Virus record (IMG/VR): IMGVR_UViG_3300021964_000133
Location: 1 to 45,378 of that record
Source: a virus
DNA: 45,378 bases
Reading direction: 5' to 3' (one strand)
Shown: positions 1 through 24,300 of the stretch, one piece after another
How the letters are laid out: each line of letters begins with the position of its first letter
Position numbering within the stretch: position 1 is the stretch's first letter
Translations under genes and position numbers: made by a program
Notes under the pieces: model-generated
The model's database searches: none
The model's input: only the letters and a program-made list of their open reading frames with translations
Told to the model about the DNA's origin: nothing

Positions 1-598
1 GGTCTGATTCCCACCATTTGTAGAACGCTTCAACGTAGGGGTTTGTCTCATCCTTCTTGTAAGGTTCCGCACTGTCGTGGCTGTGGGTGAAGTGGTTACG
101 TCCATCAGTGACCATGTCCGTGTAAGGTCCCTGCCTCTTGATGTTGTTGGCCCAAGTGGAACTGAATGCAGGATTACAATATGTACAAGCGAAATTACAG
201 GTCCTGTCAAATGCTATCTCCAGTGTCTTGAGATTTACATCTTTGTCTGGATCTTGTTTGTGTGCTTGATCTAAAGAGTCATTGGAAAATATCTTCGACT
301 TGTAGACCCTGTCGCTGATGTTGTCTCTGTTGATGTCCTCTATCTTCCAACAGTATTCACAGCCCTTGGGTCTGTCTCCGCACTGCATCTGTTTACGTTC
401 TGCTTTCTTCTGCACGGTGTTGTGTATTGCACTTGGATTTGTTTTAATTTCCTCGAGATCGATCTTGTGTGGCAATGGATGGTGACAACTAGTTGTCATT
501 CCTGATCCTAACCATATTGTGGCATTATACCACTTGGCTCCGCAGAAACTTGCACTCTTTGTATCTAATATCTGTTTCTTATATTCAAGATCGTCCAT
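1..598 (-). CDS. Twitch-type radical SAM protein, copy A (C-terminus cut by window edge)
   Basis: The first 199 codons are visible; the reading frame is open at base 1, so the C-terminus lies outside the window. A radical SAM cluster motif CNFACTYC sits at residues 134-141 (C134, C138, C141). Upstream cysteines at C19, C38, C80 and C83 could ligate an auxiliary Fe-S centre, as in SPASM/twitch proteins. The visible part stops just before the position of the GGEP motif in the paralogue at 1315-2685, which shares the same cysteine spacing and an NPYV-x-AF-x-KWW block. Radical SAM enzymes cleave S-adenosylmethionine to start radical chemistry; the substrate here is unknown. The start overlaps the end of the SGNH-like gene by 14 nt, so it is the last visible gene of the overlapping cassette. 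The family is clear; the reaction is not. Confidence 0.85.
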   Translation of the reverse strand, partial: MDDLEYKKQILDTKSASFCGAKWYNATIWLGSGMTTSCHHPLPHKIDLEEIKTNPSAIHNTVQKKAERKQMQCGDRPKGCEYCWKIEDINRDNISDRVYKSKIFSNDSLDQAHKQDPDKDVNLKTLEIAFDRTCNFACTYCNPAFSSTWANNIKRQGPYTDMVTDGRNHFTHSHDSAEPYKKDETNPYVEAFYKWWESD

Positions 599-1322
599 CT
601 TTTCCTTTGAAGTAGTTTTTTAATTTATTGTATTCGTCTGCTGTACAGAGTATATCACTCTTAAACATCATGTCCTTGACCCAGTGATAGTGTGCGATTG
701 GTGGTGGATGCGATTCTCCAGAGATATAGTATTCTTTATAATTGTCTTCTGAAAATTCCCACAGGCCACCCTTTTCTTTGTAGAACACAAACTTTGTCCA
801 GTCAATTTCATTGTACAATGCACGTTCGCTTTCACTATGAAAATTTGTATTAATTACATCTTGTTTGAATAACATCATTGTGTATGGTATTTTTTTCTTA
901 TCTAAGAACATCTGTGTTCTTTGTATATTTTCTAATGTCCTGTAATATTGGTGTTGTTCATTCCAAAAATGTCTCCTGTAGTAATCGTGTTTGTCTTCTA
1001 ACCTGTGCCCACCATACCAAACGCTCCACTTGAAGTCTTCGTCCCATGCCCTGTAAGTTATCCTACCATCTAGATGATCTACTCCCTCGTCCAGTGTTAT
1101 TACTTCATACCTATCACTGGCCGACCACATGATGTACATGTGATCTATTTGTTTGTGTTTCATGGCACTGTTGATCACCGCACGAGATATTGTCTCGTTG
1201 CCGCTGGCAGATCTCCCTTTGTTGATCATTGTCACACCACCATTGAACCATGGCACGAATTTAGGCCAGCAAGGCCATTTATAGGCCGTGAAACTGCATC
1301 CATGTGATATTGTCTTATGCAT
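585..1322 (-). CDS. SGNH/GDSL-like hydrolase
   Basis: This 245-residue protein starts at the ATG at 1322, which overlaps the stop of the upstream radical SAM gene by 8 nt; a longer in-frame reading would run far into that gene and is unlikely. An N-terminal HGCSF block (S10 as candidate nucleophile), SASGNE with N42, and a C-terminal SHP motif (H205) follow the order of SGNH hydrolase blocks I, III and V. Such enzymes remove or transfer acyl groups on carbohydrates or lipids. The usual DxxHP is replaced by SxSHP-like sequence, so activity is not certain. Its place between two radical SAM paralogues and upstream glycosyltransferases suggests action on a glycan or acylated product. The gene looks A+T-richer than its neighbours. 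Confidence 0.6.
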   Translation of the reverse strand: MHKTISHGCSFTAYKWPCWPKFVPWFNGGVTMINKGRSASGNETISRAVINSAMKHKQIDHMYIMWSASDRYEVITLDEGVDHLDGRITYRAWDEDFKWSVWYGGHRLEDKHDYYRRHFWNEQHQYYRTLENIQRTQMFLDKKKIPYTMMLFKQDVINTNFHSESERALYNEIDWTKFVFYKEKGGLWEFSEDNYKEYYISGESHPPPIAHYHWVKDMMFKSDILCTADEYNKLKNYFKGKDGRS

Positions 1323-2685
1323 TCCTGCACTCCTCCCAAAACTCTTCCATCTCAGGAAATGTATTGAGAAATCTTGTAAGACGTCTGCGATCGTGTTCGT
1401 TGAAGAAGGCGTAAAAGTTTTTTTTGTTTTGCGTACTTGCGTCCGCGTTTTCGCGCCAGTATGCGAGATTGCGTTGCATCTTCTGGATCTCGAAGTCCTT
1501 GAATATGTGTAGCCCGTTTGCCTCGCCGGAATTGTCCTGCATGTATTTGATGTTGTCCTCATGTATGCTCTGGTACGACTCCGGTAGCATCGTTATCTGT
1601 TGCCATGCGGGTTGTCTGAGCAGTGGCACGTCGAACCATACCCTCTGATAGGTCTTGCTGTACTTGGTACGCAGTTCCAATATCTTTTGTAACAACTTGT
1701 CCATGCTTGTAATACTTAGATTGTTATAGGTGCATATGAATGTTATTGAGTTACGTCCCGGTATACGCTCTAGGAACTCCTCCACGTTGTCCATCATGTA
1801 GTCGAAGTCTAATCCATTACGTATGTACTCCGCACGTTTGCCGAATGCGTCCACACTCACAAACTGCATCATGTGTTCCACCTTGCCGTGCATACATATC
1901 TCCTGTGCCATGTTGAAGTACTTGGTCTTCAGTTTCTTGTCTGGTGGACACATATTGCTTGTGACGTTGAGATGTAGGTCCTGTTTGGGATTGTCAATTA
2001 TGTACTGGAACACCCGGTAAGTGTTCACATCCATCATGGGTTCTCCGCCCGTCATACGGAAGTGTTTTAAGTTCTTGTACAGAGTAGGCCACCACTTCCA
2101 AAAAGCAGTAACATAAGGGTTTTCTTCTCTGTTAGGTATTGGACGTCTTCTACCCTGAAAATGCTCAGGAGCATTGTGCGGAATGGTAGTGGGATATGCT
2201 CCATACATCTCCGTTTCTTTGCCCCAGGCAGTGGAAAACTGTGGCGAACAGTAACTACACTTGAAATTACAAGCATTGTTAAAATTAACTTCCACATACC
2301 TAGGTGTCCAACGTTCGTCCATTGGATTCTGTCGTATCGCATCAAAGTCTTGCATGGCCCATGGCTCACCGGATCTGTAATGTCTGTCAGACATCTCTCC
2401 TGTGTCCTCCATCTTCCAACAATATGAACAACCCGCCGGTCGCTCACCTTTGAGCATCTGTGATCTTTGATTGATTTTCTCTGCGGTGTTGTGTAGTGCC
2501 GCGGGATTGTCTACTAATTTTTCGGGGTCAATGTTGTGCAGTGGCGGGTGGTAGCAACTGTTGGTCAGTCCCGTGGGCAGGTGCAGTGAAGTCTGGTTCC
2601 ACTTGGCCAGGCACATGGTCGGGGAAACTTGTTCTAGTTTATCCTTGGCTTTCAGTGCGTCCTGTTTGTAATCACTAATACTCAC
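1315..2685 (-). CDS. Twitch-type radical SAM protein, copy B
   Basis: This is a complete 456-residue protein with a GTG start at 2685, overlapping the upstream glycosyltransferase stop by 11 nt; a GGAG lies about 10 nt before the start. The radical SAM motif is C139, C143, C146 (CNFKCSYC), followed by MTGGEP at 211-216, which contacts SAM. C25, C44 and the GCSYCW pair C86/C89 lie before the core and may hold an auxiliary cluster. The N-terminal SCYHPP block and cysteine spacing match copy A at 1-598, so the two are paralogues separated by the SGNH-like gene. Twitch/SPASM radical SAM proteins often modify peptides or sugars. No precursor peptide is evident in the window, so the substrate is open. 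Confidence 0.88.
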   Translation of the reverse strand: MSISDYKQDALKAKDKLEQVSPTMCLAKWNQTSLHLPTGLTNSCYHPPLHNIDPEKLVDNPAALHNTAEKINQRSQMLKGERPAGCSYCWKMEDTGEMSDRHYRSGEPWAMQDFDAIRQNPMDERWTPRYVEVNFNNACNFKCSYCSPQFSTAWGKETEMYGAYPTTIPHNAPEHFQGRRRPIPNREENPYVTAFWKWWPTLYKNLKHFRMTGGEPMMDVNTYRVFQYIIDNPKQDLHLNVTSNMCPPDKKLKTKYFNMAQEICMHGKVEHMMQFVSVDAFGKRAEYIRNGLDFDYMMDNVEEFLERIPGRNSITFICTYNNLSITSMDKLLQKILELRTKYSKTYQRVWFDVPLLRQPAWQQITMLPESYQSIHEDNIKYMQDNSGEANGLHIFKDFEIQKMQRNLAYWRENADASTQNKKNFYAFFNEHDRRRLTRFLNTFPEMEEFWEECRNA

Positions 2686-3571
2686 GATCTTGCACTCCCT
2701 TGTTGATGTGTTGTGGCATCACGAAACGATGGAACCTGCTGTCCATCTCATCGTACTCCGCTATGGGCATGTCCAACTGCTGTCTCAGGCTGTTGCCGAA
2801 CATCTCCAACTCCTGGTCTATGTTTTCTGGTCGGACTGTGGCGCTGAAGTAGTCGGCCATCCCGTTGAGGTCACTGACGTCGAAGTCGTAGTTCTTGTGA
2901 TCAACCACTGTGTAGAAACTGCCCATCCTCGCACCCAGCATCGCGAACTTGCCGTTCTCCACGTCCGCACCTATGGTACACCATGTGGTCAGTATGCGTA
3001 GATTAGTTGGCCATATCTTTGAGAATTCGTTCGGACTTATAGGGTTGCCTTTTTCGGTGCTCATCTTTACCCCTTCTCTAAATCCAGCAATGAACGCCTG
3101 TGATTGTGTGGAGTTAATCACCGTTGTCGAATAACAGTTGTGTAGGTTCTCGTGTGGCACTCCCCAACAGAAGTCTATTTTGTTCTCTTCCGTTTCGGCA
3201 TTTTCATGTGTCTTCATGTTTAAGCATGTTTCTTTGTTCCAACCAACAAGTCCACCGTTACCATATACTAGTCCATTGATGTTGTTCCTTGCCCTCCACC
3301 TATGCACTGCTTTCTTGTTGGTCTTCGTCCAATCGAGTGTTTCTAATAAAAATTTCTCATCTATAACGTTGTCTCCATCCACACTGATGAAGAAATCTGT
3401 TTCTGCAAGTTCCGCCGCGGCCTTGTGTGCGGAGTCGAAACCTACCACGCCATCAACACGCTTGGCCCATGGCACCTTGTTCTTTAGGTCAGCCCAGTTT
3501 TCCTCCTTGTTGGGCTCCTTGAACGAGATGTACACGAAGTCGAGGTCACTTATTCTCGTTCTATCTGCCAT
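2675..3571 (-). CDS. GT-A-like glycosyltransferase
   Basis: This 298-residue protein has an AGGAGT ribosome site directly before its ATG at 3571. An N-terminal Rossmann-like stretch (DFVYISF at 11-17) leads to FISVDGDN at 61-68. D65-x-D67 is the metal- and nucleotide-sugar-binding DxD motif of GT-A glycosyltransferases. The length suits a single-domain transferase without membrane anchor; no signal peptide or transmembrane segment is seen. It overlaps both neighbours (22 nt upstream, 11 nt downstream), so it is probably co-translated with the radical SAM and glycosyltransferase genes. Donor and acceptor sugars cannot be predicted. The GT-A fold is inferred from the motif and context. Confidence 0.65.
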   Translation of the reverse strand: MADRTRISDLDFVYISFKEPNKEENWADLKNKVPWAKRVDGVVGFDSAHKAAAELAETDFFISVDGDNVIDEKFLLETLDWTKTNKKAVHRWRARNNINGLVYGNGGLVGWNKETCLNMKTHENAETEENKIDFCWGVPHENLHNCYSTTVINSTQSQAFIAGFREGVKMSTEKGNPISPNEFSKIWPTNLRILTTWCTIGADVENGKFAMLGARMGSFYTVVDHKNYDFDVSDLNGMADYFSATVRPENIDQELEMFGNSLRQQLDMPIAEYDEMDSRFHRFVMPQHINKGVQDREY

Positions 3572-3852
3572 GTGACTCCTCCCTCTGCTATCTTGTTTGG
3601 CCAGTGTATGTCATTGTCATGTAATGCATATCCTTTTGTTGATTTTTTTAATACACTGTATATTGTCTTTGGATTTGGCGTCGGTTTGACCACAATCTCA
3701 CCATCCCGCAACATCAGGTTCTCCTCGCCGTGCTGTTGTGCCCACAATTTCTTATCCAGTGTGACTTCGTGTTGTTCACCTTGCACTGCGACGAAGAACT
3801 TCTTTGGTTCACGCCTTGGCATTTTTTTCAGTGCGTCAAACAATCCTGGCAT
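3550..3852 (-). CDS. Unrecognised 100-residue cassette protein
   Basis: The start is placed at the ATG at 3852 because AAGGAGT lies immediately upstream; an earlier in-frame start at 3891 lacks this and would overlap the previous gene more deeply. The protein opens MPGLFDALKKMP and is rich in Lys and Trp, with no signal peptide, membrane segment or recognisable catalytic motif. The segment around residues 20-65 alternates short hydrophobic and charged stretches (KKFFVAVQG, LRDGEIVVKP), which suggests a small beta-rich fold. It lies between two glycosyltransferases and overlaps both, so it may be an accessory or partner protein of the cassette. I do not recognise the family. Confidence 0.6.
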   Translation of the reverse strand: MPGLFDALKKMPRREPKKFFVAVQGEQHEVTLDKKLWAQQHGEENLMLRDGEIVVKPTPNPKTIYSVLKKSTKGYALHDNDIHWPNKIAEGGVTWQIERE

Positions 3853-4630
3853 GTAACTCCTTGTCGTGGTAGTGCCATACCCTGCTGACACGTGTCTCTC
3901 CTATGTACACGGCATCTCCCGTGCGATTAGGGTATAGGTATTCATTCTGGTTCTTGGTCCTTGTGGTACCATTGACCCCGGGCTTGTGGTGTATGAACTT
4001 GAACCAATCGTAATCTATCAATCCCTGTGATTTTGGATCCATGATTCTGTATGCCAATGCGAAGACTACGTCAGTGCTGGGATATTCGTCATGGCAGTTT
4101 ATTAAAATTGTTGTCTTTACTTTATTCCAGTTTGCAATTATGTCTCGTGCAGTGTCGTAAAACTGTTGTGCCCTCTTGCTCCTCCTGAAGTACATCAATC
4201 CGTTGTAGATGTTGGGCAACTGGTTTCTCGTGAATAGTTTCCTGTAAGGCGTCTGTTTGACAACGTTGCCTCGATAGTCAAAGCAGTCCACACTGAAAAC
4301 CAGGTCGTGTTGCCATAGGTGGTACCACCACCAGTCTGTGTTGGTGGTCCATAGCATGTCAGCCTCAAGTTTAATGGTATGGGTGAAAGGTGTCATGTCG
4401 AAGGCCTTGTACTCGTTGGCCCACTTGATCTCATGCTCGGCACTGTCATCTTGTTTCATTACTTTGACCACATCAACGTGTTCGCTCTCAAACTTGCTTT
4501 TCTCATCTGTGACTACGCACACCTGGTTGTGTTTGTTCCAACGTTTTATGCTCTTGGCCAAGGTCATGGACAATTCAACGTAATCTGTTTTAGCATTATT
4601 CTGTGCGAACCATAGGAATCCCCTAGACAT
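3836..4630 (-). CDS. Glycosyltransferase-like protein (GT-A/GT8-like)
   Basis: This protein has 264 residues, with AAGGAGATAG before the ATG at 4630. The N-terminus reads as a first beta strand (FLWFAQNN), followed by VCVVTDE at 37-43 and KLEADML at 87-93. E89-x-D91 sits where GT-A enzymes carry the DxD/ExD metal motif. A later YNGLMYFRRS segment and the C-terminal HHKPG resemble the acceptor side and terminal histidine motif of GT8-type transferases. No membrane segment is visible. The gene overlaps the neighbouring GT by 8 nt, and both probably act on the same glycan. Family placement is by motif order only. Confidence 0.6.
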   Translation of the reverse strand: MSRGFLWFAQNNAKTDYVELSMTLAKSIKRWNKHNQVCVVTDEKSKFESEHVDVVKVMKQDDSAEHEIKWANEYKAFDMTPFTHTIKLEADMLWTTNTDWWWYHLWQHDLVFSVDCFDYRGNVVKQTPYRKLFTRNQLPNIYNGLMYFRRSKRAQQFYDTARDIIANWNKVKTTILINCHDEYPSTDVVFALAYRIMDPKSQGLIDYDWFKFIHHKPGVNGTTRTKNQNEYLYPNRTGDAVYIGETRVSRVWHYHDKELHARIV

Positions 4631-5372
4631 TGGCTATCTCCTTGTTCAACACATGCACATCCTGATGCTCCACACATGATATCTGATCGTCGTACTTCCA
4701 TGCCAGTCCTGTGTCCGTGATCTCAACCACCTCACAGTCCGGTGGCAATGTTGGCAGTGCGAAGGGCAATTTCTCGTATCCCATGAATCCGTTGACCTGT
4801 TGCAGTGCTATAGCAAACAGGTAGTCATTCCTTAGATTCTTAGCGTATATCCTGTACATCTCCGTGAAGTATGAATAATGCTGTTTGACGTACTTGACCG
4901 TGTCAAATATCTTCCTGACCTTGTCATTCTTCTTGAACAGCAACACTGTGGCCCACACCATGGGTATCATGCTCCACCTACGTTGGTCGAAGGAGTTCCT
5001 GCCCGTGAGGTCATGTGCGGTGTCTGGCACCAGGAAGTCATGGTCAGTGTACAAAAACTGCTTGAGATTGCCAGTGAAACAGAAGTAGTCTATGTCCATG
5101 ACCAGTGTGGTATCGTAGGGAGAGAGTTCGTAGGCCATGTGCCTGTCCACGTTGTTCCATGCTCGGCCGTTGAGCTTGTTGCCCAGTTCTGGTTCGATGA
5201 ACCGGTAGTTTATGTGTCCCATTGGACTCATCCTGTTGTAGGTGTCGAAGTTCGTGATCACCGTGATCTCACTGGTGATGTTCTTCCGCACCAGCCTCAC
5301 ACAACGCTCAAGTATCCTGTGATATCGCGTGTGCTCCGTGTCGAAACAGAACAGTAAAACACCAGCGGACAT
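4623..5372 (-). CDS. Glycosyltransferase-like protein with DxD motif
   Basis: The start at 5372 (249 residues) forms a TGATG junction with the upstream stop, and AGAAGGGAC precedes it; a longer in-frame reading would bury most of the upstream gene. The protein starts with a hydrophobic beta strand (AGVLLFCFD) typical of nucleotide-sugar-binding folds. TTLVMDIDYFCF at 88-99 contains D93-x-D95, the metal-binding motif. A WATVLLFKK strand and the C-terminal HVLNKEI segment complete a GT-A-like pattern. It is the third transferase in a row here, with a different sequence from the other two, which suggests sequential addition of different sugars. Donor and acceptor are unknown. Confidence 0.58.
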   Translation of the reverse strand: MSAGVLLFCFDTEHTRYHRILERCVRLVRKNITSEITVITNFDTYNRMSPMGHINYRFIEPELGNKLNGRAWNNVDRHMAYELSPYDTTLVMDIDYFCFTGNLKQFLYTDHDFLVPDTAHDLTGRNSFDQRRWSMIPMVWATVLLFKKNDKVRKIFDTVKYVKQHYSYFTEMYRIYAKNLRNDYLFAIALQQVNGFMGYEKLPFALPTLPPDCEVVEITDTGLAWKYDDQISCVEHQDVHVLNKEIANV

Positions 5373-5689
5373 CACGTGTCCCTTCTGGAGAATGTTTGGT
5401 AGACCTGTTTGTATGCGTTGAGGCTCTCTTGATTGCGTTCTACCAACACGGACAGGAATTGGTTGGGATCGGTGATCTCCACGGGATTGCGGTTGGTGTC
5501 CAACACACAGAACGTGTCCAGTGATTCCTTCAGTGTCCTCACCAGGCATATGGTCTCGGCGTCAGCACGGAATATGTGTTCATCATACACCACCACCTGT
5601 CGTGAGTGTGCCTTCTCCAGGGCGTTGCGCTTGGCTACCGCCGTGTCGTATGAGAGGTCAGATTGTCGTTTTAGTTCGCTGATGTCCAT
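5372..5689 (-). CDS. Unrecognised small protein heading the enzyme cassette
   Basis: From the ATG at 5689 this is a 105-residue protein, opening MDISELKRQ. A TTG five codons upstream is a poorer choice because it overlaps the promoter -10 element. The sequence is charged and mostly helical in appearance (residues 5-30 and 75-105), with a strand-rich middle (VVVYDEHIF, ICLVRTL, CVLDTNRNPVEI). No catalytic motif is seen. There is no Shine-Dalgarno sequence before the ATG; instead a near-consensus sigma70 promoter ends 6 nt upstream. It is followed by the glycosyltransferase at 4623-5372 through a TGATG overlap. Function unknown. Confidence 0.65.
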   Translation of the reverse strand: MDISELKRQSDLSYDTAVAKRNALEKAHSRQVVVYDEHIFRADAETICLVRTLKESLDTFCVLDTNRNPVEITDPNQFLSVLVERNQESLNAYKQVYQTFSRRDT

Positions 5690-5695
5690 GCCACA

Positions 5696-5724
5696 ATTAT
5701 ACAATAATTATGGTATGATTTCAA
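5696..5724 (-). promoter_or_regulatory. Near-consensus sigma70 promoter of the enzyme cassette
   Basis: On the minus strand TTGAAA (5724-5719) and TATAAT (5701-5696) are separated by exactly 17 nt. The expected start, 7 nt after the last -10 base, is 5689, the A of the ATG. An imperfect inverted repeat (CCACAATTAT / ATAATTATGG, 5691-5713) overlaps the -10 region and could be an operator or a weak hairpin. The site separates late structural genes from the cassette downstream. Confidence 0.65.
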
Positions 5725-5737
5725 CCTGGTAAAATTA

Positions 5738-6691
5738 TTATGATTGTGTGTTAGAGACCTGTGCGTTTGAACTTGACTGTATGTTCGCGCTCAAGCCTTC
5801 ACCGTTTGTTGGATACACCTCAATCAGGGCCAGTGTCATCCTTGGTGCTTCATTGGGATTGGCTGGTACACCTGACGTGTTTCCAGATGTGTAAGTGGTG
5901 TCCGCCGCTGGGTCAGATGATACCATCTTGATCGTCAACACTGTGGCAGAACTAACTGCCGCGTCCAACTTGGCGCTGTACTCAACTGTGTCAGATGTGT
6001 AACCCGCGTTGTTTGAAGTCAATTTCAATAATACTGTGTAGCCTGTGCCTAGGTCATGGAAACCGTTCGCTAGACCGTTGGTCGTAAGCGTCTCGCCTGA
6101 ACCCGATCTCGTTGTTGCATGGGCTCCTAGGTCTAGGTTGCCTGTGGCTGTCACTGTAAGATCATTGAATACCGTGTCTTTTGAACCATCGATACCTGTG
6201 ACGCAACTTGGATCGATCCTGATCTTGCCGCCTGCGTTGAAGAAAGCCCTCATCGTGGCGTTGTCTGTGAATGTCACAGATCTCTCTATGGTCGATGTTG
6301 AATTCCATGTGGCTGAGTTGGTCGATGTGCCAACTGCGTTTGTGGCCAGTGCCGTCGCGCCCGTTGATCCTGCCGCTACCGCGGCCGCCAATGAGGCCAG
6401 GTCTGTGATCAATGCCGCTCTTATGGCGATGGTGTCACCCGCTGAAACTGATGATGCCGTGATACTTGTGTTTGTGTGGTCGGCAATGTTGTCCATGCCC
6501 GTGAACAATGCGTTCCAACTTGATGCGTTGATCGTGTCGCCCGCCGAAACCGTTGAAATCGTTGATTGGTTGAGACCGTACTCGCCGGCGCCCGGACCTG
6601 CGAAATGGTTGTATCCGTATGGTGAACTTGAACTGTTCACGAAGGTGTTGTATTCATCATCTAAAATCGTGTCACCTGCTGTATATGCCAT
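5738..6691 (-). CDS. Virion structural / fibre-associated protein
   Basis: This 317-residue protein starts at 6691 after a TAGGAGT ribosome site. It is rich in Ser, Thr, Ala, Asn and Gly and nearly free of Cys, as in phage fibre proteins. A repeated SAGDTI element occurs three times in the first 90 residues (near 4, 49 and 83, with slight variation), then an Ala-rich stretch and a beta-rich C-terminal half (ITVT-like strands, LTLALIEVYP). The C-terminus is an Asn/Ser/Gln tail. It ends the fibre gene run; downstream lies the sigma70 promoter of the enzyme cassette. Exact position in the virion is not shown by the sequence. Confidence 0.6.
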   Translation of the reverse strand: MAYTAGDTILDDEYNTFVNSSSSPYGYNHFAGPGAGEYGLNQSTISTVSAGDTINASSWNALFTGMDNIADHTNTSITASSVSAGDTIAIRAALITDLASLAAAVAAGSTGATALATNAVGTSTNSATWNSTSTIERSVTFTDNATMRAFFNAGGKIRIDPSCVTGIDGSKDTVFNDLTVTATGNLDLGAHATTRSGSGETLTTNGLANGFHDLGTGYTVLLKLTSNNAGYTSDTVEYSAKLDAAVSSATVLTIKMVSSDPAADTTYTSGNTSGVPANPNEAPRMTLALIEVYPTNGEGLSANIQSSSNAQVSNTQS

Positions 6692-6698
6692 GTTATTA

Positions 6699-8327
6699 TT
6701 ATTTAACTCCTATCACACATTCTGTTAATGCTGTTTCTTTGTTATATTTATCCTTGATCAGACGTCCTAGGGTGTTGAAAGCGGTACAATCGTCGATCTG
6801 GGCCACCTTGGCCTCGCCGTTGTCAGCGGAAACTATCCTGTCTCCTGCCCTGCCAGTGCCCTGTAGTTTGACCAAAACCCGTCCTTTCAGTGCCACCATT
6901 GGATGTGAGTCGTTGTTGCCCGCATCAGAATTCATCAAGAACGCTGGTTTTTCCGAGATCACGCCAAACACAGCGTCTGACATCTCCTCTCTACACTTGG
7001 TTATCTCTGCTTTTCCGCCCAGTATGACCACGTCTCCCACTTCCGTGTCGCAATCTGCTTCGTATCTTTCTGCCAAATCTGCGTACTGCGCCGATGTGGA
7101 TGTTGCGTGTACTATGTTGGCCCTGATGTCCACTAGTGTGGGTGCTGATAGCTCGTCATCGCCGCCACCTGATTTGAACGCTGTCCAGGCTCCGCCCGCG
7201 TTGCCAAATATCGTTGATCCGTCGTCCGCGAATGTCTCGTCCCAGACCCAGTAAAGGTTCTGTTCCGTTGCAACGGATGTCTCTCCCCTGTTGACTTTGA
7301 GTCCCGTGAAGTTGGGCATGCCCGCGTTGTTGGATATGTTCCTGTTCAATTCTATGATGTTGTCTTCCACTGACAGCGTGGTTGTGTTGATTACTGTGTT
7401 GGTGCCATCAACTGTGAGGTCGCCAACACGCAGATGTTCTATCCTGCCCGTCGATCCCTGGATCCTCAGTGCCTCCTTGGTGGTGCCGCCATCGTTGACT
7501 GTGAATATGATGTCCTTGTCCTGTGTGGTCTGTGCTATTGTGAAGTCGTCTGACGAGAGACTCATTGTTATGTCAGACCCTGCACCGATCCTGATGCCAT
7601 CATCTGTCTGTACCGATAACTGACCTGTTGTTGTGTCTGCAGAATCAGATCTTAGATAGTTGGCCGCCGCAACTCCGCCCAGTGCGTCCGAGTCCGTTGC
7701 TGTCCCCCTGAACTTGGCAGATGCCACGTTGGTTGAAAGTTGTATGCCCTGCGATACCGTGGCGAAACCTGCCGCGATCAGGGCCGCGCCATTGGTCTCT
7801 GTAGAACTTGGGGTGAATGCTTCATTTGAAACAATGCCGACCACGGTGTCATTGGACACCATCTTCAATATTGACTTGTTAACGCCTGTGTTGTCCTCCA
7901 GTTTCTCACTAGTGAACTGTGTGACTCCTGATCCTGCAACCGTTGTTGGACCAACCAATGTGAATGCTGTTCCGTTGTACACATACAACTGTGTGTTAGT
8001 CGTGTCAAACCAAAAATCCCCAAGCACCGCATTTGTTGGTGCAGTGGTGGAGTTGGTTGGTCCACCGGCTGGTTTGAACTTGGAACCGTCGTATACGTTT
8101 AACCTTTTATTTGTTTGGTCGAACCAAAGTTGACCTTGCACCTTGTTGGATGGTGCCGTGGTGTTGTTGAAATTCTCCAGGAGTTTGACAAGGTTCTCGT
8201 TCAACTTCTCACCGAAGCCCGCGTAACCTTTACCTATCAGTGTGAGGTCAGTGGTCGCTACGTCGATGGTACCGTCGGCCAGTGTGACCAATAGTGTGCC
8301 GAATGTGTTGTTTATCTTGTATGCCAT
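6699..8327 (-). CDS. Tail fibre paralogue 1
   Basis: This 542-residue protein shares three modules with the proteins at 11648-13093 and 13104-14600. Residues 1-90 carry an N-terminal attachment-like module (LVKLLENF then GQLWFD, which recurs nearly unchanged). A middle module carries DALGGVAAANYLRS, DT-x-G, and VNDGG about 70 residues later. The C-terminal ~135 residues start SAQYADLAERYEAD and continue GDVVILGG, GRVLVK and GDRIVS; this module is shared with the 13104 protein only. It resembles the C-terminal assembly domains (Peptidase_G2/chaperone type) found on fibres, but that match is by memory. Such proteins trimerise and bind host surfaces. It lies 3 nt from the 60-residue gene upstream. 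Confidence 0.75.
   Translation of the reverse strand: MAYKINNTFGTLLVTLADGTIDVATTDLTLIGKGYAGFGEKLNENLVKLLENFNNTTAPSNKVQGQLWFDQTNKRLNVYDGSKFKPAGGPTNSTTAPTNAVLGDFWFDTTNTQLYVYNGTAFTLVGPTTVAGSGVTQFTSEKLEDNTGVNKSILKMVSNDTVVGIVSNEAFTPSSTETNGAALIAAGFATVSQGIQLSTNVASAKFRGTATDSDALGGVAAANYLRSDSADTTTGQLSVQTDDGIRIGAGSDITMSLSSDDFTIAQTTQDKDIIFTVNDGGTTKEALRIQGSTGRIEHLRVGDLTVDGTNTVINTTTLSVEDNIIELNRNISNNAGMPNFTGLKVNRGETSVATEQNLYWVWDETFADDGSTIFGNAGGAWTAFKSGGGDDELSAPTLVDIRANIVHATSTSAQYADLAERYEADCDTEVGDVVILGGKAEITKCREEMSDAVFGVISEKPAFLMNSDAGNNDSHPMVALKGRVLVKLQGTGRAGDRIVSADNGEAKVAQIDDCTAFNTLGRLIKDKYNKETALTECVIGVK
6745..6752 (-). promoter_or_regulatory. Possible late promoter GATAAATA
   Basis: GATAAATA on the minus strand, one base from the T4 late consensus TATAAATA, lies 54 nt before the ATG at 6691. 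It sits inside the coding sequence of the upstream gene (codons for Asp-Lys-Tyr), so it may be chance. Confidence 0.3.
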
Positions 8328-15331: not shown

Positions 15332-15339
15332 TATTTATT
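15332..15339 (-). promoter_or_regulatory. Late promoter AATAAATA
   Basis: AATAAATA on the minus strand lies 6 nt before the ATG at 15325 and includes the TAA stop of the giant upstream gene. The predicted start is at or 1 nt before the ATG. Confidence 0.42.
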
Positions 15340-18300
15340 CAGGTGCGTTTGTGGGTTCGTTAGCAATGAATTTAGCCTGTTGTGTGCTTGAAGCCTGTAA
15401 TCCCTTGCCGTCCGCTGGATTACCATCCAGTGCCGTGTACCATACCTGTCCTTTCTTGTGTAATACCTTGATCTGTGTGCCTGACGCAGGTGCGGTGCTC
15501 AAAGTCACTGCCGTCGTGCTTCCATCCACAGAATAGTTTATGGTTGATCCATCCTCGCTAGTGAGCAACAATCGTTGGCCACCAATGAATATGTCTAACT
15601 CGCTAGCGGAGGCTGGTGCTTGTGATAGTGTGAACACTGCCGTGCTACCATCACCAGTGAAGGTGTTGGTGTACACGGTGTCCGCGTAAGGGATGGTTTG
15701 AGTACCAGACGCATCTACCACTTCCGTGCCTGATCCATGCTCCTTAATTCCTGTTCCAAGTGTTCCACGTCTTAGTTGTCCCAACGTGTTGCTTGATTTT
15801 GTGTAGTATTCTATTCTTTCTTTGTCTATGAATATGACCCCTGGAACATTTGCAGATGCGTTTGGTGTTGGTAAAACGCTCGCGTCTTCCACGGTTATGG
15901 TCTGTGTTCCTGCTGTCATGTCCACAGTTAATTTTGTAGTGGCTGTCTTACTGATACGTTTGTAGAACGTCCTGTTCATCATGTCTTTGAATATCCTGAA
16001 TCCGGTGGCACCCGTCGCAGATTCCAGTGCGAAGTACATGACATCCAGTCTGTCTGATGATGTTATTGTTTTGCCTTTGACCGTTATGGTGTTTCCGCTT
16101 GTGGTGTAGTCGGCACCCTGTGCCAACTGCTCTCCATTCAACCAAACGTATGTGTATCCTGCGTTCAACGTGTCAAACCTAAGTTTGAACACACCACTTG
16201 TCCTGCCTTCTAACACTTCTCTCCTCTGCTTCATGCCCAGTGCGTTGTTGAATGTGGTCACTGACAACACATCATTTGTGGACAAACTGTAAGGCGATGT
16301 GATAGCACTTGGCACAAGTATGATATCTGTGCCTTCATTGTAATATTGGTTGTCGACTAGTGTGGATATGCATATCACGTCTGTCACCGTTGGAACTGAT
16401 GCTGTTACGAATTCAACGTTCTGATTCGATGTGTCAACTGTGTAGTGCGTGTTAAGATCCTTCTGCACCCCATTGACGAAAACCTGCACCTGGCTGGCGC
16501 TCGTGATCGTCTTGGCAGGATCTACCGTGGAATCGTCTCCCAGGCCTGACACCACACCGTAGGCGTATGTGCTTCCATCTCCCACGTAGTAGGTGTTGTC
16601 TGGTCCACGTAGGACCCTTCCGTTCACCTCGACCGTGGTCAGTCCAGAGAATGGACCTATAGATCCAGGTGGATATGTCAATGTGTATCTGTCTGTTGAC
16701 CCGTCATACACTATGGCTTGGTTCCTTACACTGGCATAACTCCTTGACGACGTCGCTGATTTGTTGAATCCCGCTATTTGTATGAATTCCCCCGATGCCG
16801 GTGCTGTGTTGAACACCACCGTCACTGTGTTGGCGGTTATGGTCTGTGTGAAAGCTGTTGTTGGCACTCCGTCAATGGTGATGTAAATCTCACTGGATGT
16901 TGAATCTAAATTGAATTCTCCCCTAGTGGAGGTCAAGAAGGACGCGGTGGTTCCGTCGCCCGTGAATGTGTCCAACACCCTGTAGTTCTCACCCGAAATC
17001 GCAAACACCTTTGTCGATATCACACTGTTGTTGGCAGGTGCACTGTCAAATGTAATTGTTTTGTTCGCTACATCTATCTCGTAGTCATTTATGGTTGAAT
17101 CTAATGCAGGCCCTTTCTGCACAACACCGTCGACGGAAACCGTCACTGATCCCAGTGTACCTGGGTAGTCTCCTATCGAGTAGGTCGAATTGTTGCCATC
17201 GCCCCTGTAATTCCTGTCACTGATGAATGGCACGCCTGATTCCGGTGCCGTGTAAACTTTGATGTCCAGTGTATCAAACAGTTGTCCGGGTACTGTCTCC
17301 TCAGGTGCGTAACTAGTGTCTGGCGATACGAAATCATCACCTTCCAGTATGATGTCGCTTGGTGCGTGACCTAGTGCGGAAGTGAACAGTCCTCCCTTGA
17401 CTATGGAATCCAATGTCCTGTCATCTGTTGGTGTAAGCACACCGTCATCATCGAAAGGAATGAACTCAACCAATGCGTCGATTTCAGGAACCTCACTTAT
17501 AGTGAAACTTACAGTAGATCCATCTCCTCGGATCACATCTGATAGTTTTTTACGTGTGCTGTCATCCTGCGTCAGGTACACTTGATAAACTTCTGTCGAT
17601 GCTGGTGCAGTGTCAAAAGTGTATGCCGCTGTTGATCCATCGGCTCTAAACGCTTTTATTCTTGACTCTCCGTAGTTGTCCCATGGGAAGTCATACCAAC
17701 CTGCCCTGTCCCAACCTTGTTCTTGGTCGAACAGCAATCCTGTGACCATTGTGCCACCGTAGTCAACGCCCGTCATCACCTGGTCAAGTTCATTGCCTGG
17801 CATACCTGAGCCTGGTGTGTAGAAACCTTTTGTTCTGTCCGCCGCTGTAAGTCCCGTCTCATCACCGTAAACTTTGTACACACTTCCGATGTTGTCGTCG
17901 AAGTCCGTTGTTGATGTGAATGCGTTGGTCACTTTGTACAATTGGTTGTTGTATCTCAGCAGGTCATTGTAAGCGTAACTGGTCGACTTGGCCCAATCCA
18001 CAACTCTGGATGTGCTGGACACCCTGTCAAATTTTATCGTAGTGTTGAAATCCCTTACCAGATCGTTGTTCAGGTTAGCATAGGCCTTGGCGGTGTCCGT
18101 TGGTGTCGTGCCATCCGTCTTGCCTCCTGATAATATCACTGTGGGTGTTGTCGTGTAGTTTGCACCAACTCCCGTGATGTTTATTCGAGTAACTGAACCG
18201 TTCTGAATGATCGCCGTGGCAGTTGCCGCGGTGGTCTGTGGCGTCACATACATCTTGAATGTGCCAGACTTATCACTCTGTGCTTCACTGACTGATGCTG

Positions 18301-21300
18301 TTGGACCATAGAATGTGCCAGACAGGCCATCAAAAGTATAGGTGTTGGTGGTTCCCGAACCTGAATTCTGCGTGTCGTATATCTCTGCCTGTTTCTCACT
18401 GGTGAACAACGGATAGTAGTAACCAAACTGACCACTTGTCGTTCCCGAAGCACTGGTTCCCTGCACCTGGAAAGGGCCTGTTGATCCTGTTGTACCGCCT
18501 AGTATGGTCACCGTTGGTGCCACTTGATATCCTGAGCCACCTGCCGTGACTGTTATAGAATTTACATGTTTCTTGTGGTAGTCATACCACATCTGATATG
18601 GATATTCCGTTAGTTTGTCTGTGTCTGATTCAACATTGAGACTCCTGATCTTGCCTGTAGTAACATCATAGAAAGTCGGATTGTCGAAGTCTGAATATAT
18701 TCCGTCCTGTGTCTCTGTCTTATCGTAACCCAGTCTGTACTCTCTCAGTTTTGTGTGGAAAGGTTTGACTTCGTTGATGTAACTCTCTATCCATGAATCC
18801 GTGCCTGTGGTGTATGTCTTCCTTTGATCCAGTTGTCTAACGCTGTTCTTGGCGTTTATGAATGAAGTCTTGAACATCCAGTCAACGTAGGTCTGTTCTG
18901 ACAACACTTTCCTAAGTCCGGTAAAGAACAAGGTGTTGTATTCCACGGCCAGCTCGTCCTTGAAAAGATCATCCCTCAGTGCCGTGAGCACCTTCCTGGT
19001 CTCTGTGGTTGGCTCTTGGTCAAAGAAGTTGTCATCGAAGTTGTCTGCCCCAGCGAAACCAGAGGCGTCCTGTGAGTAGTCGTAAAGTTTCGTGCTCAAC
19101 CTTATGGTTCCGTTCTCTGTCCCAACGTTCTCCCAGCCAGTGGCCGTCCTCATGAACAGTTTCCATCCCCCCGTGTCCGCTGATGTCACTTTCACATGTT
19201 TGCCTTGCTCGAGCTCCAGTGCGTCCAGTTCATACTGGAACGTGACTTGCTTGTCTATCTTGGTGTCCTCGTCGTGCACCATGTCCCCGTCTGTCTTGTA
19301 CCAGTCCGTGTAACTCCAGTACGCGGAGGTGTTGAATGTCTGTAACTTGGTCCTTGAGAATTGTGTGCCATCCCATTGGTATATCGCCCAGTAGTTGTTG
19401 GCGGTCTCGTCTGATCTCACCAGGTAGTTCGCCGTGCCTGATATGTCCGCTGTGTTGACGTAAGTCAGTTCCGCATAGGTGTCAACGGCCGTGTCCCATT
19501 CTAAACTCTGTGCTGTTGGTTCTGGATCCTGGGAATCTAGATTCGTAAAGTCTATCTGTCCAACCAACTGATTGCTCTTCAGCACTGTGTTGGCGTAGTC
19601 TATGATCTCTTTCAGTGCGTCAAATCTGTCCACGTACCAGCTCTGCCTTGGTCTGACGTTGTTTCCGTATCTATCGTTCAGTGGCTGGTCGGGATCCGGC
19701 ACAAGGTCACCCGCGGTGTTCTTGCCCGTCAGTGAGTCCCACCAACGTGCCTCTATCTGTGTGCCCGGTCTGTAGTCTGCGTCACCCTCCCTGGCCAACT
19801 TCCACACGCTGTGGGAGTCTCCCTCGAAGGTGTTGCTCCTGATGTCCACGTTGAGCACTATGTCTCCGTTGACCAACCCTTTTATGTTGTTCAGCAGGAA
19901 CTTGTTGGTGTCAGTTATGGAATAATATTTGAAGTCAAATGCCCTTGGGTTCCGTATCAGATTGGCCACAAATGCTATAGTGTTCTTCCTGACCACCACG
20001 CTGTTGCTTGGCAGTGTGACCTTGTCCTTGACCCAGTAGTAATAGATGTTGACGAACCCGTCCAACCTGGAATCGTACCTCTGCACAACGGTGTACTGTG
20101 AATCATCACCGTGCAGTGCGGTGCCCGATATCGTCTGTGCTGATCCTTCGGTCCTCCTGTTCCATTCGCTGGGCAACAATCTGCTTTCTGTCCACTCATA
20201 CACGTCTATGCTTGATCCTGGGAAGGTCTGTCCCCAATGGTTGTGTTTGTATTCCTGGGAATCTTGTTCGTACCAGAGCCACTTGACCGTTGACAGGTCC
20301 CACCATACTTCTCCAATGTGGTTCTCTGCCCAAGGGGTCTGGCTGTTGGCATTGGCTCCCACGTTGTATGCGGCAGGATCCCACGTGGTCTTGATGTTGA
20401 TCTCTCTGTCCGCCACGCCCAGTATCCTTCCTTTAATGGGATCATACAGGTCGTAGTAATCTCTTATCTGTTTTGTCCTGTTGTTGAACTCGAAAACCTT
20501 GCCCAGTTTGTCCGTGTCTATCAGTGCTGTTTCAGTCACAAGATTCTTCCAAGCGTACTCTCCATTGGTCTTTAAATCGTAAGCGGAAATTGTTCCATCA
20601 TTGACTATTTTAGTGCTTCCGTCCGTGGCCGTGTTGCCATCATCTTGTGGTGCTCCAACGAAAACCGAATTATCGATCATGCACACACCACGTCCGAAGT
20701 CGTCTTGCTCTGACATGTTGTCTGATGTCATCCTGTCGTCTATGACAAATTTGGTGTTGTACATCGTGGCCGTGAACACTCCGCCAGACTGAACATTGCT
20801 GTCCACTATGTTGGTGTCCTGTAGGTCAAAAGTGGTCTCCCCTAGATCAAATTTCATCTCGCTGGCACTTGCGAAATTCTCAGCGCCAATTACCAGCCTT
20901 GTTCCGTCATGATTGATGTCAAGGGTCGTACCAAACTTCATGTTCGTGCTTGTACTCGGGGCATCGATGGTCTGCTGTAGTGTGTAGGTGTTTGTGGAAT
21001 CGTCTGCGTTCCACTTGTAATAGTATATCGCACCTGCGTCAGGATTTGCACTGGCGTCCACCCCTGGTGCACCTATGATCAGTGTCGTGCCATCCTTGCT
21101 CATCGCTATGGATTCACCAAAACCTGTGTTCAGTGATGAACCATCCGTGGCCACACCTGTCAAGGTCTGTGCCAGTGCGAATGAGTTCTGTGTGCTTCCG
21201 TCATTGCTCTGTGACGTCTTTATGAATATCTCCACCTTGCCCGCGTTGCCTGGTGCCAGTGAGCTGATCGCCAGTATGTCACCGTTGTCGTTCGCCTGTA

Positions 21301-24300
21301 CCCTGTGTCCGAATCTCTGCGCCGAACCACCCGCTGGTGCTTCTATGGTGTAGTCCTGTGTCCAGGTGTCATAGGTCGAGCCGTCCGCACCCACTCCCCA
21401 GGTGTACATGTAAACCCTGCCCTGGTCGTTGTCATGTCCTGGTGCCGATACAAATAGGTATTTGTCTGCCGTGGCCCTTACCGAATTCGCGCCTGGTTCC
21501 GATATCTTGTGTGACCATCCAAAGTTCAAATCCTCATTGGCTGTTGATCCGTCTGTTGGCGGGGTCACAGTCGACAGTATTCCATACTTGAATGTGCTTG
21601 GATCCCAAATGTAAATTTTTAATAATCCCGAATTGGGCTGTCTTGTGCTTCCGTCTAAACCCAACGTGTTTGTGTATGGTGCTCCTGCCACTATGAAGTT
21701 CTCGTCAGTGCTGATGGACAGTGACTCACCCAACCTGCTGGTGTTGTCGTCGTTGTCGGTCATTGTGGCAGTGGATTGCACTTGGAATGATGCATCTGAG
21801 GAAGATCTGAACAGGAAGTGTACCTCACCCTGTCCCTTGCCCGGTGCGGATGCCACGACGGTCCTGCCGTCATTACGTGCCACGATCCTGTGCCCGAACT
21901 CCTGTTCCGCTGTGCTGGCATCCGGTGAAAGTCGCAATTCCGTGGTGTAGGGATCTTGCTTCTCATACACACGCCACAGACCTGAACTGTCCGCGTCCGC
22001 GAACACCTTGTCTCCTGTTTTCCCTATGGCGTCGTCTTTGTCCTTGTAGTCGTCGTAGTTCAGTAGATCGTTTACGTTGTCCATGGATGCCAATCTCACA
22101 GATATGAATTTGTAAATGTTTCCGTAACTGTCCGCCGTGGATCCGTCTTCCAGGGCGGGAATGAATCCCACGTTGCCCGCGTAGTCTATTATCACGGTCT
22201 TGTGATCTGGTGTTGCCTTGACCTCATAAACCCCATTCAGCGTGGTCTCCTCACTGTTTGATATGCCAAAGTAGTCGGCCTCTGTGGTGGTCGATCCTGC
22301 GGTCAGGTTGTGTGATCCTGTAAAAGTTATCTCCAACTGTTGTTCATCAATTAAAATTAGGTTCGCTATCTTGATGCCCGCGTTGGATATCCTGAAAACG
22401 TCCCAGTCCCTGTTGCTCTTGTTGGCCACCCATACCAGGTCATTGGTGGTTATGGCATTCATGTCGAGGTTCAGTATGTCCTCTATGTTGAAGGCCGTGT
22501 GCTGTACCTGTTGCGGTTGTGGATAGCCCGCGGTCTTGAACACCTGTGCCGTGTCCCTGCTGACACCCGCCTGGGTGTAGTCCAATCTCTTGAATGTGGT
22601 GGATGCTGTGTACTCCACCGGTTTGTAGTAGAAGTCGTCCTTGATGATGGCGTCGGACCTCGCATACTCCTTGGCGTCAGCGGAAGTGTCCAGCAGTTCA
22701 ATGCTCTGCGGATCCGCCGTGATCACGTCGTCCTTCAACACTATCTGGATGTTCTCAATGGAATCCGTGTTTCCGAAGTTGCCTGTACGGATCATCCATT
22801 CCGGATAGAGGTCCAGTGAGATGTCCTCTCCCTCGTACCTGGCCTTCAATATCTTGTCTATGGCGTTCTGTGTGCCCTTCTCCCTGATGTACCCTTGGTA
22901 GAACTTGTACTGCGACACGTCATTGACGAACAGGTTCTCCAGGTAATCCCTGCTCTGGTATCCCGTCAGCCTCTCCGCCAGATTCTGTTGTGATTCGTCG
23001 AAGTTGTTGGTCTCCAATTCATAGAAATCATTGAACTGTGAGATCTTGTAGTCGAAGTTGGGTATCAGTTGTGGTGCAGGTTTGTTCGCCTTCAGTGTCC
23101 AGTTGGACGTGACGAACGTGGATTCCGAGTTGTGGTTGTCCTTGGCCACGTAGAACTTGCCTTGGTACTCTACCGAGTCGCTGATCCTGTAGTCGGTGTT
23201 GGCCGTCCAGTATGTGACCTGTGCGGCGTCGAACACGAAACCTGGTGCGTAGTAGTCTCCGTTCCATCCTGCCGTCTTCCAACCAACCAGTTTCAATCTC
23301 TGTTGTCTGAAACCAGTGAAAGGATCATACAAGATGTCCGCGAACACTGTGCTGTTGTCAAACAACAGTATGTGTTCTTTCTGGACTGTGTTCAGTGCTA
23401 TGTTGTACAGTCCAACGGTGTCAGACTTGATGCCCAATTCGAACGTTTTTCCAACACGCTTGGTGGATATCTCCCTGATGTCTATCTTCCTTCCGCCGGA
23501 ATCCAAGAGTGAATAGTCTCCTGCCAGATTCCTCAGTTGCCCCACGATGCTGTTGTTGGTGTCCAACTCGAAACCGTCCGCGGCTGGTGATACCGTCACT
23601 GCTGATCCTGGTGCCCACTCCTGCGTGGTCCAAAACAAGAACTCTCTGACTGCGTTTGACCAGTTGAGCGTCTCCTTGAGTTCGTTGGAGAACCTGTTGA
23701 ATCGGAATCCCTGTGACTCCAAATAATGTCCATACCCAAACAAGAAGTCAGTGACATCCTGTATGGTGTTGAACACATATCCATATGGGATGGTCTGTGT
23801 GCTCTCCTGGTATGCCCTGTACTGTTCCACCTGTGTGGATCCCGTGACTGACACAGGCGTCGCTGTGGTCGTCTTGACTGGATAGTTGAAATTGAAATAC
23901 GGTTTGGCGGTGCTGTAACCCAACACCTTGTATCCGCCCAACACCGTTGACCCGTCCTGGCTTATGTCCGTGTTCTTCTCAATCAACACCCCCGAGTACT
24001 GGAAACTCTCAACGGGATTGGATGTCCTGAAAAGTATCTTGTAGTTCTCGTCTGGTATGAACTTGGATCCTAACGTTGATCCCGGAGACACACTGTCTGT
24101 CAGTATCTTGATGTTGTCCTTGTCCGTGAATCCTCCCAGTTTGTATGCCAACTGCACAGTCAGGTCCTTCATCTTGTCGTAGTAGAAGGTCTTGGTGTCT
24201 AAATTCCTTGATATCAGGTAATTGACCACGAAAGGCTGATAGCCCGCTGTCTGGTATCTGGTCGTGACCCCTGTTGCTAGATCCGTTATTGTCTCCAAGT

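Follow-up and report, generated by a model that had tools for sequence, protein, structure and literature searches.

The nearest precedent for the cassette reported here is the host-recognition cluster of pelagimyophages, marine T4-like phages in which glycosyltransferases and variable radical SAM cassettes adjoin tail fibre genes; there the cassettes are presented as additions that vary between two genomes (PMC7029224). A mycobacteriophage report mentions putative capsid glycosylation (PMC11256854), and in that setting, as we consider for the present locus, phage-encoded glycosyltransferases are proposed to modify virion proteins. Cultured Vibrio phages also carry N_Twi-like radical SAM genes beside GT4-type genes or, in K566, GT8 genes. 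To our knowledge, no radical SAM array accompanies mycobacteriophage virion glycosylation.

In the Vibrio phages, a trio of a GT4 gene, a small gene, and a radical SAM gene was identified by sequence in KVP40 and K566 and by position in D482 and nt-1, and two GT8 genes lie among the radical SAM genes of K566. These phages differ from our locus in having three (KVP40) or five (K566) N_Twi-like genes, in yielding no tblastn match to R1, a radical SAM enzyme of our cassette, and in gene order. The curated cut-off of the NCBIfam family NF033640 ('twitch domain-containing radical SAM', 170 bits) was passed by two of the three K566 radical SAM proteins tested, and the KVP40 proteins scored below it. 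Near the radical SAM/GT8 cluster of K566 lie an annotated PagP gene and an LpxC-like gene recognized by eye (L074, 21733-22182 and 22193-22999), which suggest phage lipid A modification. A few genes upstream of the radical SAM genes of KVP40, KVP40.0254 (L099, 5225-5818) encodes a Thr/Ser/Tyr repeat protein, possibly a heavily modified one.

This study analyzed a 45-kb IMG/VR fragment (IMGVR_UViG_3300021964_000133; the whole stretch of 45,378 nt is hereafter called the window). The fragment is that of a T4-like phage and encodes baseplate wedge and tail-lysozyme proteins, SbcC/SbcD-like gp46/47, and a late sigma factor resembling gp55. The gp55-like factor was nearest to those of large Pseudomonas, Sinorhizobium, and Agrobacterium phages (42-45% identity), and a 4285-aa open reading frame (15335-28192, minus strand) lies amid the tail genes. 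We identified 71 related loci in IMG/VR; counts across them are not independent, because the loci are partly redundant and drawn from shared samples. The co-variation tests used 38-45 dereplicated genomes. In some loci a simple gene caller overlooked genes such as R3 or GT_C, and R3 was recovered by tblastn and family searches. No match to R1, GT_B, or fib1 was found by tblastn in 50,697 phage records. The first-pass annotation was aware of no phage system on record that combines exactly these genes; that statement fits the literature searched, apart from the precedent of the pelagimyophage clusters (PMC7029224). As in those clusters, glycosyltransferase and radical SAM genes of a T4-like phage adjoin tail fibre genes; unlike them, the present cassette comprises a five-gene N_Twi radical SAM (NF033640) array in 24 of the 24 longer marine records examined, three putative glycosyltransferases, and a fibre-linked exchange unit. 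The features of the window are as follows.

1..598, minus strand: R2, a second N-terminal-twitch radical SAM enzyme, cut by the contig end (127 bits, model positions 2-168)
585..1322, minus strand: SGNH-like hydrolase recognized by its motifs, whose slot between R1 and R2 is optional
1315..2685, minus strand: R1, an N-terminal-twitch radical SAM enzyme (NF033640; 326 bits against the cut-off of 170)
2675..3571, minus strand: GT_C, a probable GT2-like glycosyltransferase with an invariant DGDN (weak Pfam and fold matches)
3550..3852, minus strand: s113, a 100-aa protein co-varying with GT_A/GT_B
3836..4630, minus strand: GT_B, a GT_A homologue with the motif altered to E-A-D (hhalign; phrog_1903, function unknown)
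4623..5372, minus strand: GT_A, a predicted GT-A-fold, GT8/LgtC-like glycosyltransferase (AlphaFold2 pLDDT 93; DxD at D93 and D95)
5372..5689, minus strand: s106, the small first gene of the cassette, co-varying with distal fib1 and GT_A/GT_B
5696..5724, minus strand: sigma70-type promoter TTGAAA-N17-TATAAT (11/12 consensus match)
5738..6691, minus strand: fib1, a Ser/Thr-rich protein, virion-like by position and composition; candidate glycan acceptor
6699..8327, minus strand: fib2, a tail-fibre-like protein with a Peptidase_G2-like autoproteolytic domain (PF11962; PHROG)

Read along the minus strand, the order is promoter, s106, GT_A, GT_B, s113, GT_C, R1, SGNH-like gene, and the truncated R2. 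Successive genes overlap by 1 nt (s106 to GT_A), 8 nt (GT_A to GT_B), 17 nt (GT_B to s113), 22 nt (s113 to GT_C), 11 nt (GT_C to R1), 8 nt (R1 to SGNH), and 14 nt (SGNH to R2). When a conserved junction was defined as an overlap or an abutment of 5 nt or less, the first six of these junctions were kept in 64/64, 63/65, 52/52, 51/52, 59/59, and 12/13 relatives, respectively; the overlaps are therefore not a chance product of ORF calling. Approximately 70 IMG/VR loci keep the order fib2-fib1-s106-GT_A-GT_B-s113-GT_C-R1-[SGNH slot]-R2-R3-R4-R5-SG2, often followed by GNAT and carbamoyltransferase genes. The slot between R1 and R2 is occupied by the SGNH gene, by another SGNH-like gene, or by nothing, and is thus optional, R1 and R2 abutting in about 26 of 60 relatives. 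Several marine records carry extra N_Twi genes elsewhere, and some carry 11-12 N_Twi genes. The overlapping or abutting cassette that the first-pass annotation had read as one pathway is upheld by the overlaps and the preserved order; no scattered homologous cassette was found within this clade, and the extension to the left of base 1 continues in relatives as R3-R4-R5-SG2. Its gene list was incomplete, lacking s106, s113, and the extension to five radical SAM genes and a second SGNH-like gene.

The cassette had also been assigned its own sigma70-like promoter, and the position of this element proved to be conserved in relatives. In most loci TATAAT occupies -12 to -7 relative to the ATG of s106, and a TTG-N19..21-TATAAT element precedes s106 in 57 rows (42 distinct sequences), the window included. 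A Shine-Dalgarno match was found at s106 in 0/64 loci, in contrast to 59/64 at fib1. Because canonical -10 spacing places the start site at the s106 ATG, a leaderless s106 mRNA is predicted. The -10 element overlaps an imperfect dyad, perhaps an operator, whose sequence and centre vary between loci. In one relative (L075, L076), the start codons of several other genes are preceded, at a distance of 5-9 nt, by elements resembling TTG...TATAAT, and leaderless or near-leaderless transcripts may for this reason be common in the clade. A T4-late promoter (TATAAATA) was not found upstream of s106, and its two matches in the window were not significantly above chance.

Full-length homologues in locus L003 scored 288 (R2), 416 (R3), 310 (R4), and 362 bits (R5) against NF033640, all over the family cut-off; together with the score of R1, these values confirm the two radical SAM paralogues noted at first pass. 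The CxxxCxxC SAM-cluster motif and the N-terminal auxiliary-cluster cysteines that mark NF033640 members are intact, the invariant cysteines of R1 being C25, C44, C86, C89, C139, C143, and C146. This family takes its name from its architecture. Comparison of R1 with solved structures gave no match beyond a weak one to MoaA, PDB sequence searches with the R1, GT_A, GT_C, and SGNH profiles returned nothing useful, and the literature searched contained no characterized homologue of R1-R5 or member of NF033640. The weak matches of these proteins to named radical SAM/SPASM families were in many cases to peptide maturases. Some SPASM/twitch radical SAM enzymes act on sugars.

Three glycosyltransferases had been proposed for the cassette, and they fared unequally. 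The Foldseek search with the GT_A model returned LgtC, UGGT, and GlyE as the best matches (probability 1.00, E 3e-6, TM approximately 0.5, a distant similarity), and D93 and D95 are invariant in the alignment; on this modelled structure, GT_A is a GT-A-fold glycosyltransferase with a DxD motif. No match to the Pfam GT8 family (PF01501) was found, and GT_A is therefore described as having a GT8-like fold rather than as a filed GT8 member. GT_B stands by its profile homology to GT_A (hhalign 96%, E 4e-9). GT_C scored 13.6 bits against the Pfam GT2 gathering score of 23.3 (PF00535, E 0.067); its AlphaFold2 model (pLDDT 88) gave 26 Foldseek matches at E<=1e-3, nearly all to glycosyltransferases and at a TM of approximately 0.3, which weakly points to a GT2-like enzyme. 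Profile comparison of GT_A and GT_B with single K566 GT8 sequences failed to match. The SGNH-like hydrolase held at the motif level: G9, S11, N53, H239, and H245 (numbering of SG2 in L003) are invariant among nine aligned relatives and form the ordered Ser, Asn, and His catalytic blocks of SGNH hydrolases. The window gene shows this likeness in its motifs, and the protein had no Pfam match and no PDB sequence relative.

We then consider the adjoining fibre genes. The PF11962 match of fib2 (E 4e-5) is just under the Pfam cut-off, and its PHROG matches are tail fibre and virion proteins. Because fib1 had no match in PHROG or Pfam, its virion role is assigned from position and composition; its Ser/Thr content is 26% as a family average. 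When R1 distance was controlled for, fib1 correlated with GT_A (partial r 0.68) and GT_B (0.65; permutation p 0.0005), as opposed to 0.08 for the adjacent fib2-fib1 pair and -0.06 for fib1-R2, and fib1 also co-varied with s106. The distal three quarters of fib1 co-varied with s106, GT_A, GT_B, and s113 (partial r approximately 0.6-0.7). The C-terminal part gave 0.71 (0.61-0.80) with GT_A and -0.01 with fib2, whereas the first 80 residues gave 0.18 (0.04-0.35) with GT_A and follow fib2, so that the edge of the exchange falls inside fib1. These co-variation patterns indicate that GT_A and GT_B are exchanged with the distal fib1 domain and that GT_C, which evolves slowly, and the radical SAM genes form the constant part. 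Fibres whose base is conserved while the tip is exchanged show this pattern, but here two small genes and a pair of glycosyltransferases travel with the tip; s106 might be a fibre chaperone or a glycosyltransferase partner. The exchange module does not divide strictly into two haplotypes; because two-way clusters disagreed between most genes, we claim continuous co-variation alone.

Freshwater relatives keep the core fib1x-s106x-GTax-GTbx-s113x-GT_C-R1, followed by genes of sugar-related type (nucleotidyltransferase, kinase-like, DHQ-synthase-like, and SGNH-like), and they lack R2-R5 where the array would stand; tblastn of GTax and s106x against cultured phages found no match. One relative (L076/L077) carries DegT aminotransferase, Gfo/Idh, and PIG-L genes (by Pfam) and an epimerase-like gene away from the cassette, as well as FolE-, QueE-, and Tgt-like genes of the 7-deazaguanine type elsewhere (from translations). 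Among 14 genome contigs matching R1, 11 were Bacteriovoracaceae/Bdellovibrionales or unnamed-bacterium MAG contigs (37-42% identity). The remaining three were phage-like contigs with 88-91% identity over R1 (L085, L096, and L097, from MAGs labelled Betaproteobacteria, Pelagibacter, and Rickettsiales) and are probably phage contigs mis-binned into MAGs. Glycosyltransferase genes (GT4-like) adjoin the R1 homologue in three of the five cellular contexts read (L086, L087, and L091), with ABC-2 permease and ATPase genes nearby in L086 and L087; L087 also has carbamoyltransferase and SGNH genes, and PqqD-like genes were recognized in L087 (by Pfam) and L091 (by eye). In L095 and L098, the R1 homologue occurs with an R2 homologue and without such a cluster. 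The Bacteriovoracaceae loci thus resemble the cassette in having R1/R2 homologues with GT4-like, carbamoyltransferase, SGNH, or ABC-2 genes nearby, and differ in being chromosomal, in their exporter and PqqD genes, and in showing neither a fibre gene nor a five-gene array.

Because the cassette adjoins what is probably a tail-fibre gene and in part co-evolves with that gene, an unusual sugar destined for the fibre or the host surface is a probable product of these uncultured aquatic phages. The same idea in the first-pass annotation, an unusual glycan on the virion or host surface, gains from the predicted GT-A fold found for GT_A, from the way in which GT_A/GT_B co-vary with distal fib1, from the downstream carbamoyltransferase, and from the cellular neighbourhoods in which R1 homologues stand by glycosyltransferase, ABC-2, carbamoyltransferase, SGNH, and PqqD genes. 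We propose that the cassette may serve host recognition as a pathway of its own that tailors a glycan and attaches it. This proposal draws as well on the conserved overlapping order, the five-gene array of the marine records, the Ser/Thr content of fib1, the genes that follow the core in freshwater relatives, the DegT, Gfo/Idh, PIG-L, and epimerase-like set of one relative, and the radical SAM/glycosyltransferase neighbourhoods of the Vibrio phages. In it, GT_C and R1-R5, aided by the optional SGNH-like, GNAT, and carbamoyltransferase proteins, would be the conserved part that makes or modifies the sugar, by chemistry such as epimerization, dehydration, or deoxygenation if general knowledge of SPASM/twitch enzymes applies; GT_A and GT_B, swapped as a unit with the distal fib1 domain, would attach the sugar to that domain. 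A sugar as the substrate of the radical SAM enzymes, the roles of fib1 as acceptor and as tail fibre, and every chemical step are inferred here. We estimate at roughly 0.45 the probability that the fibre receives a glycan tailored by the radical SAM enzymes. It is a doubtful further step that a five-enzyme N_Twi pathway of the clade's own puts an undescribed sugar on the tail-fibre distal domain, with domain and glycosyltransferases swapped together. The EAD of GT_B in place of DxD and the weak assignment of GT_C count against the fibre-glycan reading, as do the negative searches for a characterized homologue of R1-R5 and for a PHROG or Pfam match to fib1.

The linkage of fib1 with the glycosyltransferases is also compatible with modification of the host receptor. 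The cassette might alter a host surface glycan (O-chain or capsule) early and block superinfection or readsorption, the fibre and the glycosyltransferases addressing the same receptor sugar. A host-type sigma70-like promoter upstream of s106, in place of the T4-late TATAAATA, suggests expression apart from the late genes, and a virion target is therefore not favoured by it. GT_A resembles LgtC, an LPS enzyme; cellular R1 homologues stand beside an ABC-2 exporter; K566 has its annotated PagP and LpxC-like genes near the radical SAM cluster; and the same argument has been made for pelagimyophage glycosyltransferases (PMC7029224). However, no flippase, polymerase, or polyprenyl-linked glycosyltransferase was recognized in the cassette, and the unit that is exchanged includes part of the virion-like fib1, its edge falling inside that gene. 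We regard the host-surface explanation as tentative and as the main rival, less probable than the fibre reading.

The first-pass annotation had also named a modified peptide. It is unlikely that fib1, s106, or s113, or another ribosomally made peptide or protein, is instead the substrate of the radical SAM enzymes, altered for example by crosslinks or epimerization, and that the glycosyltransferases glycosylate the same protein. PqqD-like genes are more typical of peptide substrates, and the one (an RRE) near a cellular R1 homologue counts against the sugar reading. The peptide maturases among the weakly matched families and the Ser/Thr-rich character of fib1 and KVP40.0254 also suit this alternative. 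However, the phage cassette yielded no recognizable RRE/PqqD gene or leader-like precursor, s106 and s113 vary and show no evident core motif, and R2 does not co-vary with fib1. The replaceable SGNH slot and the absence of R2-R5 from the freshwater array position would suit genes of unrelated pathways linked by recombination alone, but translational overlaps and gene order are kept over large sequence divergence and linkage edges decay unevenly with distance, which renders that explanation improbable. Phage DNA glycosyltransferases exist, and one relative has FolE-, QueE-, and Tgt-like genes; nevertheless, the position by the tail genes, the co-variation with fib1, and the surface-polymer-like context of the cellular R1 homologues make hypermodification of phage DNA with a sugar very improbable. 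Both of these last explanations were ranked low.

If the fibre-glycan reading is true, it would give a testable role to the uncharacterized radical SAM family NF033640, with KVP40-like cultured Vibrio phages as analogues in which related radical SAM/glycosyltransferase pairs can be tested. It would also show that a phage fibre domain and dedicated glycosyltransferases can evolve jointly, and it would point towards unexplored sugar chemistry among aquatic phages.
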